Source: Ktedonobacterales bacterium
GTDB taxonomy: Bacteria > Chloroflexota > Ktedonobacteria > Ktedonobacterales > DATBGS01
Assembly (NCBI GenBank): GCA_036557285.1
Contig: DATBHW010000005.1
Coordinates: 124,001-188,000, forward strand
Length of the DNA stretch: 64,000 bases
Reading direction: 5' to 3'
The first letter of the stretch is position 1. The number at the start of each line of letters is the position of its first letter. The notes beneath the pieces are model-generated. The model ran no database searches and was not told the origin of the DNA. It was given only the letters and a program-made list of their open reading frames with translations. The translations under genes were made by a program, and so were the position numbers. Positions 10,378 to 23,152 of the stretch are shown in pieces.

Positions 10378-10767
10378 TCAGGGAGCTTCAACGACAACAC
10401 TTCGCGCCCAGCGCAGCACACGCCTGGCTCGCTGCATCAAGACATGGGCTTCTTCGGCGCTGATGGTCTGGTCGGCTTCTTCCGGGGGGGTCTCGGCATA
10501 GTAGGCTTCAGGATGATAGGGCGAAAGCGCCGCAGCGTCCTCCAGAATCTCCGCAGGAGCGTCTACGGCTGCGCCCAGAGCGCGCAGATCATGGTCGTAC
10601 ATGATACGACGCCCCTCGCGCCGCACGCTGACCGCCTGGAAGGATTTCTCTGCTACCTGATTGCATATGTCGGCACAGGCAAAATGCCGCCCAATCGCCA
10701 ATTCCAGCCCAGCCGAAGCCATATCCTGGGCCGCCTCCGCAAAGATGCTCAGGGCTTCCTCGTTCAT
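10378..10767 (-). CDS. HEPN domain-containing protein
   Basis: A 129-residue all-helical protein. The pattern AxDMASAGLELAIGRHFACADICNQVAEKSFQAV (about 12-46) followed by YDHDLRAL (57-64), then a helix ending ARRVLRWARSVV (113-124), fits the HEPN fold that often pairs with MNT nucleotidyltransferases. The R-x4-6-H RNase motif of toxin-type HEPN proteins is not evident, and no MNT antitoxin gene is adjacent, so it may be a stand-alone nucleotide-binding member. A promoter is visible at 10808-10837. The ribosome site is weak. Confidence 0.65.
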   Translation of the reverse strand: MNEEALSIFAEAAQDMASAGLELAIGRHFACADICNQVAEKSFQAVSVRREGRRIMYDHDLRALGAAVDAPAEILEDAAALSPYHPEAYYAETPPEEADQTISAEEAHVLMQRARRVLRWARSVVVEAP

Positions 10768-10807: not shown

Positions 10808-10837
10808 ATGATAGCCCGATGGGAGGGAAAGTGTCAA
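10808..10837 (-). promoter_or_regulatory. Promoter for the HEPN gene
   Basis: On the minus strand: TTGACA (10837-10832), an 18-base spacer and TATCAT (10813-10808), about 40 bases before the HEPN start. The mobile element inserted just upstream (target duplication 10845-10853) leaves this promoter intact. Confidence 0.55.
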
Positions 10838-10853
10838 CAGGACACAAAGCCAG

Positions 10854-11172
10854 GGTTCTCCCAAATCTGAGGTGTTGGCAAGCGAGGCGTGTTACTGGTA
10901 GCGCCGCCTCCCTTCGGAGAGGGCCGCTTGCCTCGGCTGGGCCTGCGGCCTGGACCGCTTGCGGGAACTGGGTTCCCGCACTCTCCCTCGCTGCGCTCGG
11001 TCGCGCGGTCCAGCCTCGGCAGTCTCGCTCCCGTTGGTCGCTCGCGCGTCCCTTCTTGGCGGCCAGCGTTGGCCTGCTGGTCCGCTGGCCTGGCGGGCGA
11101 ACGCGCGCCAGGGCGCAGCGTTGGCCGCCTGGAAGGCGGCGCTACAAGTGACCCCCGATAATTGGTGGAACC
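10854..11172. mobile_element. MITE-like element, copy A (319 bp)
   Basis: Imperfect terminal inverted repeats: the left end starts GGTTCTCCCAAAT, and the right end read in reverse is GGTTCCACCAATT. The element is flanked by a perfect 9-bp direct repeat, CAAAGCCAG, at 10845-10853 and 11173-11181. Inside, the right part carries the GCCGCCTGGAAGGCGGCGC arm next to CTACAAGT, and the left part has TGAGGTGTTGGCAAGCGAGGC, shared with copy B at 22821-22999. There is no transposase reading frame; the GC-rich interior gives only spurious frames. It is therefore a non-autonomous element mobilised in trans. The middle is about 140 bp longer than in copy B. Confidence 0.85.
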
Positions 11173-11244
11173 CAAAGCCAGAGGCGAGAAAGGAAGGCTC
11201 CCCTTCTCGCCTCTGGCAAAGGAAAATTATGAAGAAAACCGTGA

Positions 11245-22787: not shown

Positions 22788-22820
22788 AACGTTGATTCCC
22801 TGGTGGTCTATAGCGTCTAT

Positions 22821-22999
22821 GGTTCTAGCAAAAATGAGGTGTTGGCAAGCGAGGCATGGTACTTGTAGCGCCGCCTTCCAGGCGGCCACCGCTGCGCCAG
22901 GGCGAGCGTTTGCCCTGCGGGCCAACACACCAGCAGGCCAGCGTTGAGCCGCCAGGATGGCGGCGCTACAAGTGGCAACTCCCGATAATTGGTGGAACC
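22821..22999. mobile_element. MITE-like element, copy B (179 bp)
   Basis: Shares with copy A (10854-11172) the left end GGTTCT-NN-CAAA-NN-TGAGG, the GTGTTGGCAAGCGAGGC block, the inner GCGCCGCC/GGCGGCGC inverted arms and the right end CCCGATAATTGGTGGAACC. It is flanked by an 8-bp direct repeat GCGTCTAT (22813-22820 and 23000-23007). The inner arms GTAGCGCCGCC and GGCGGCGCTAC can form a strong hairpin. It sits 34 bases upstream of the hydrolase start and just upstream of the tRNA-Val promoter. No coding capacity. Confidence 0.85.
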
Positions 23000-23015
23000 G
23001 CGTCTATAAGAGCCA

Positions 23016-23080: not shown

Positions 23081-23152
23081 GGGCGGCTAGCTCAGTGGCA
23101 GAGCATCTGTTTTACACACAGAGGGTCACAGGTTCAAATCCTGTGCCGCCCA
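23081..23152 (+). tRNA. tRNA-Val (anticodon TAC)
   Basis: The acceptor arms GGGCGGC and GCCGCCC pair perfectly. The D arm GCTCAGTGGCAGAGC, an anticodon loop containing TTTTACA (anticodon TAC), and the T arm CACAGGTTCAAATCCTGTG are all intact, with discriminator A. The CCA end is not encoded (ACCC follows). Confidence 0.95.

Follow-up and report, generated by a model that had tools for sequence, protein, structure and literature searches.

A large MITE family with a REPIN in every bounded copy examined in a Ktedonobacterales genome

REPINs are commonly regarded as bound to a single resident RAYT, with slow spread inside a lineage. In the original report, REPINs are REP doublets that form hairpins, reach high copy numbers and are presumed to be mobilised by RAYTs (Bertels and Rainey 2011, PMC3116915). 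A further report (PMC3733652) deals with GTAG REPs, with RAYTs and with TIR-flanked tyrosine transposases; its available portion includes hundreds of P. putida and P. fluorescens structures with degenerate GTAG units adjoining unrelated stem-loops and also names the bacterial MITEs NEMIS, ERIC, RUP and Nezha.

The repeats described here combine two known kinds in a new form: they make up a large MITE family with a REPIN in every bounded copy examined. As in published REPINs (PMC3116915), two inverted REPs form a unit of high copy number; unlike those REPINs, most units here are enclosed in a second transposon, whose shell has terminal repeats and is bordered by a 9-bp target duplication. The GTAG foot and RAYT genes flanked by the repeat are shared with GTAG REPs, whereas target-duplicating transposon ends surround the REPINs here and none are reported in the available portion of PMC3733652. 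Like NEMIS, ERIC, RUP and Nezha, as presented in that portion, the elements are short and non-coding with inverted terminal repeats; in contrast to these, they hold a modular REPIN cargo of variable length, and their ends were matched to no named family here. Tips of the type GG(C/T)TCT are reminiscent of ISL3-family insertion sequences, but delimited ISL3 elements mostly have 8-bp duplications, and no intact ISL3 element with the MITE ends was found in the searched genome. No description of a REPIN-packaging MITE turned up in the literature searched, which consisted of partial texts and lay mostly outside subscription journals.

The window, that is the whole stretch of 64,000 nucleotides that was analysed, holds the element from which the work started (copy A) and a second family member (Table 1). 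Copy A is 319 bp long (10854-11172), begins with GGTTCTCCCAAAT and finishes with ATAATTGGTGGAACC. These ends were readable as the imperfect terminal inverted repeats proposed in the initial annotation. Its description of a transposed element without a transposase, bracketed by an exact 9-bp repeat, was also borne out, as CAAAGCCAG stands at both ends, the element is non-autonomous, and 9-bp duplications in the family lie far above a swapped-flank null (see below). Five copies of CAAAGCCAG are present in the window, compared with 1.04 expected by chance, and only two of them abut the ends of copy A. The REP doublet (REPIN) core, common to every duplication-bounded copy found, had been overlooked, and the TGAGGTGTTGGCAAGCGAG block that had been singled out is one of three end-arm types abutting the REP. 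The 144-nt extra block of copy A is missing from 175-bp copies with the same arms, and a similar block is placed in the right REP of other copies. As a single strand, copy A folds more stably than shuffled sequences (z -4.0 as DNA, -3.6 as RNA).

Table 1. Features of the two family members and their setting, in window coordinates.
Feature	Position	Strand	Remark
Left 9-bp target duplication of copy A, CAAAGCCAG	10845..10853		
Right 9-bp target duplication of copy A, CAAAGCCAG	11173..11181		
Left arm of copy A, type A, 44 nt: terminal repeat GGTTCTCCCAAAT + CTGAGGTGTTGGCAAGCGAGGCGTGTTACTG	10854..10897	+	
Cargo of copy A, REPIN of 248 nt: REP head GTAGCGCCGCC at 10898, inverted partner GGCGGCGCTAC ending at 11145	10898..11145		
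Extra block of 144 nt within the left REP palindrome, nested hairpins	10907..11050		boundaries ambiguous by several bases
Right arm of copy A, type C, 27 nt: AAGTGACCCCCGATAATTGGTGGAACC, inverted terminal repeat GGTTCCACCAATTAT	11146..11172	-	
HEPN-domain gene (PF05168)	10378..10767	-	downstream of the promoter; copy A lies upstream of the gene
Sigma-70-like promoter TTGACA-18-TATCAT	10808..10837	-	consensus match only
Second family member, 179 bp, REPIN cargo of 105 nt, heads at 22865 and 22969	22821..22999	+	

The insertion of copy A had been placed 8 bases upstream of the -35 box of the HEPN gene. This is roughly right, with 7 bases between duplication and box and 16 between element and box. 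On its other side, a terminator-like hairpin with a 19-pair stem (11177-11217) directly adjoins the insertion, and the target duplication includes the hairpin foot, GCCAG. The second family member is flanked by an 8-bp duplication, GCGTCTAT, at 22813-22820 and 23000-23007, and a tRNA gene (23081-23152) follows about 80 bp downstream.

The host genome (5.1 Mb, 82 contigs) was searched for further copies. Using copy A as query, 90 matches were obtained. The genome-wide search for the ends, which the initial annotation had proposed, revealed a large family: at no more than three mismatches, matches numbered 213 for the right-end motif (19 for its reversed control) and 87 for the left-end motif (4 for its reversed control). 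Homology continuing past the proposed ends, one of the findings that it had held to speak against an inserted element, was not the rule. The long copies (L002-L006) match the query from position 8-12 to 328, the element being 10-328 of the query, and stop at the proposed ends.

Two samples were analysed for duplication-bounded elements. The first comprised 60 stretches picked for end motifs and the window (1.21 Mb), the second 20 further stretches (0.34 Mb), and both together cover 1.55 Mb or 30% of the genome. The stretches were chosen for holding ends, and densities are therefore not genome averages. This resulted in 72 bounded elements of 124-392 bp, 58 from the first and 14 from the second sample. 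Looser rules, allowing 7-bp and 8-bp one-mismatch repeats, gave 60 elements in the same stretches in which the stricter rules gave 58. The 72 elements are short, lack a transposase gene and have inverted terminal repeats and a target duplication of fixed length, which is 9 bp in 62 (42 exact, 20 with one mismatch), 8 bp in nine and 10 bp with one mismatch in one. Bounded copies differ in their flanks, and each has its own matching 8- to 10-mer.

An end-pair test was carried out in the 1.21 Mb, taking the nearest pairs of ends 100-420 bp apart with duplications disregarded (n = 101). An exact 9-bp duplication was present at 30 of these unselected pairs, and 48 had one with at most one mismatch. 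Swapped-flank nulls averaged 0.3 (exact) and 0.5 (at most one mismatch) of 101 and never exceeded 3 in 1000 trials each. None of the 101 pairs had an exact 10-bp duplication; thus the duplication is 9 bp, sometimes 8. Copies without duplications, the other finding held to count against insertion, are not the rule, although 49 of the 101 had no duplication. In 26 of those 49 a REP pair is still present, and such pairs could be aged or rearranged copies, or could have come about by chance. These results are evidence of the ordinary kind for a family moved by a DDE-type staggered cut.

Site analyses were done with 71 of the 72 elements, one being dropped for its short flanks. Open frames of at least 200 codons contain only 24 of these 71 sites, compared with 80% of random positions. 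Insertion is mostly between genes. A preference for palindromic targets was not convincing (4/71 at the site versus 0-3/71 at shifted positions). Likewise, no convincing paralogous empty site was found among 60 joined flanks, where matches were self-matches or repeats, and there was no close relative with empty sites.

Both ends of the elements carry arms with the tip GGTTCyNCCAA, forming imperfect inverted terminal repeats. Three arm types were distinguished, type A of about 44 nt, type B of about 27 nt and type C of 27-31 nt, with few exceptions and mostly within 26-44 nt. The 72 bounded elements are paired A-C (54), B-C (14), C-C (2) and A-B (2). A REP head lies within the next 35 nt after type-A matches in 101 of 104 cases and after type-C matches in 129 of 129. 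For the type-B pattern a REP followed in 34 of 114, a low figure that is probably due to a short pattern matching by chance. An identical type-A arm (first 40 nt) was found with cargos of 104 to 248 nt.

Bounded elements had been gathered in both samples without reference to REPs. An outer inverted pair of the REP head GTAGCGCCGCC was nevertheless present near both ends of all of them (58/58 in the first sample, 14/14 in the second). The head has a GTAG foot and a hairpin, as in published GTAG REPs, and occurs in inverted pairs, as in REPINs; 494 exact heads were counted within the 1.55 Mb. Heads also occur in clusters without arms (87 of 237, the other 150 having arms). Armless heads are exact and the sequence upstream of them scores at background. 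Arm scores beside REP heads are bimodal, with the arm either clearly present or absent. A spacing of 103-107 nt is the commonest both in armless REP pairs (28 of 42) and in two-armed ones (48 of 86). The cargo of the MITE family is a REPIN, and the REP also exists outside the MITE. In short, the repeat is a GTAG-footed palindrome of high copy number that forms inverted pairs, and a RAYT gene is flanked by the same REP.

Three related RAYT genes were found, on contigs C55 (RAYT1), C38 and C12, the latter two being 68% and 57% identical to that of C55, respectively. Two of the three pass the cut-off of 80 for NCBIfam REP_Tyr_transpos (NF047646), with 82.5 and 80.5, and RAYT1 scores 79.9. Eight exact armless REP heads lie on both sides of RAYT1 within about 1.15 kb, where about 0.4 were expected at the sampled average of 0.32 per kb. 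The paralogues L181 (C12:72155-72748) and L180 (C38:26759-27367) adjoin the variant heads GGAGCGCCGCC and GTACCGCCGCC, which suggests one REP class per RAYT. Proximity and co-occurrence in the sequence are what point to a link between RAYT and REP, and a RAYT would presumably act on the REPIN cargo.

The distribution of these parts was analysed among other genomes. REP matches at no more than one mismatch numbered 640 in this genome versus at most 2 in each of the other 46 genomes of the order. Those 46 hold only distant RAYTs of at most 38% identity, save for one 44-residue match of 43%. The REPs, the close RAYTs and the MITE are essentially confined to this genome among the 47 of the order. 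In 60 other genomes the MITE arm gave nothing beyond one lone chance match. This match, a lone end in G046 (L063), was rejected as a relative, as it sits in an apparent coding frame (read from the sequence). The only match of a wider contig search, in a Planctomycetota MAG (L183), was also rejected, since the terminal repeat is missing beside the matching block.

A mobilising transposase was sought in several ways. Within the sampled 30% of the genome, searches over distances of up to 8 kb gave no autonomous partner, i.e. no duplicated end pair more than 420 bp apart. A genome-wide search with three Pfam families gave one match for ISL3, five for DDE_Tnp_1 and one for IS256, none of which has matching ends on both sides. 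The search for UPF0236 (ISLre2) carries no weight, as its controls gave no match either. The ISL3 match is a remnant, a transposase C-terminus at L061 ~1453-1891 (C38), with a similar right end only. Of 29 ISL3 loci of the order (L148-L176), six had clear ends, with 8-bp duplications. Three of 20 wider ISL3 stretches had ends that could be delimited, in one of them with a duplication read as 9 bp with one mismatch. L174 was rejected as an ISL3 element with a matching end, since that end falls in another open frame.

We consider it likely that the family is a MITE of two short arms enclosing a REPIN, moved by a DDE transposase, with the REPIN belonging to the resident RAYT. REP pairs of the same spacing without transposon ends, together with the RAYT gene that they flank, lead to this reading. 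The arm tips would be recognised by a DDE-type transposase, the gene of which may lie elsewhere or have been lost, and this enzyme would insert the unit by a 9-bp staggered cut, mostly between genes, leaving the 9-bp duplication. The REPIN would be the repeat of a RAYT in the same genome and would spread as a passenger of the MITE as well as alone. We infer the DDE class of this transposase, and likewise the order in which arms, REPIN and other parts came together. It is possible, though we tend to doubt it, that an ISL3-family transposase is the mobiliser, with ISL3 ends as the arms. In the same order, ISL3 elements start with GGCTCT or GGTTCTCC, tips like those of the MITE, and the only ISL3 remnant of the genome has GGTTGGTGGAGCC 148 bp downstream, which resembles the MITE end TTGGTGGAACC. 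This remnant is incomplete, however, so that its other end and duplication are unreadable, and the 8-bp duplication of most delimitable ISL3 ends is seen in only 9 of the 72 MITE copies, against 62 with 9 bp. The 9-bp length argues against simple ISL3 membership. Movement of the whole unit by a RAYT alone, with no DDE transposase, is very improbable: the genome has RAYT genes and the searches revealed no DDE gene with these ends, but clear 9-bp duplications accompany inverted terminal repeats. Y1 transposases (IS200/IS605 type) insert without duplicating their target.

Given a MITE with REPIN cargo, two engines could be at work, the DDE transposase moving the shell and the RAYT or REP recombination renewing the cargo. 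We regard this as rather unlikely, although it is consistent with the same arms around different cargos, the four arm pairings and armless REPINs of identical size. If true, REPs would gain long-distance spread and the MITE an exchangeable palindromic cargo and swappable arms. We also think it improbable that the REP heads are the MITE's own subterminal palindromes, with armless pairs as worn-out MITEs and nearby RAYTs by chance. About 63% of REP clusters do have arms, and REP and MITE are both limited to this genome. Worn-out copies, however, fit poorly with exact armless heads beside background sequence and with scores that are bimodal instead of graded; chance fits poorly with the eight heads around RAYT1, and both the foot (GTAG) and the pairing of inverted copies agree with published GTAG REPs and REPINs. 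An origin from chance repeats or from an assembly artefact can be practically dismissed: some contigs (C52, C53) end in these repeats, but bounded copies have individual flanks with matching 8- to 10-mers, far above the null mean of 0.5 in 101. On the favoured reading, a MITE that packages REPINs is a second, unrelated multiplication route for REPINs, and this genome would be a natural place to separate RAYT and DDE contributions to repeat spread.

Further repeats were observed alongside the family. A nested block, GCTTGCC...GGTCGCTCGCGCGTCCC, which often comes in steps of about 72 nt, is found in the loop of REP palindromes and in some cases within other, unrelated ones (window ~10907-11050; outside REPs, L090 near 12998 and L104 near 854). 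It has 23 matches inside and 42 outside bounded elements, and possibly represents a third mobile repeat. A different palindromic repeat (like TTGTAGCGCCGTCCTTCCAGGCGGCAGGGGTGGGG) was found at window 954, L084 8397, L085 2235 and L099 4361, in the last three near GGTTGTGTGAGGC-type sequence. Two elements, L131 8479-8654 and L126 7305-7485, have the duplications CTGTAGCGC and AGCGCCGT, respectively, which suggest insertion into another REP. A separate insertion sequence, L143 1369-2711 (C24), has CAGGGCTATTTAATAG ends, a 9-bp duplication TCCTGATGC and a DDE_Tnp_1 gene inside.
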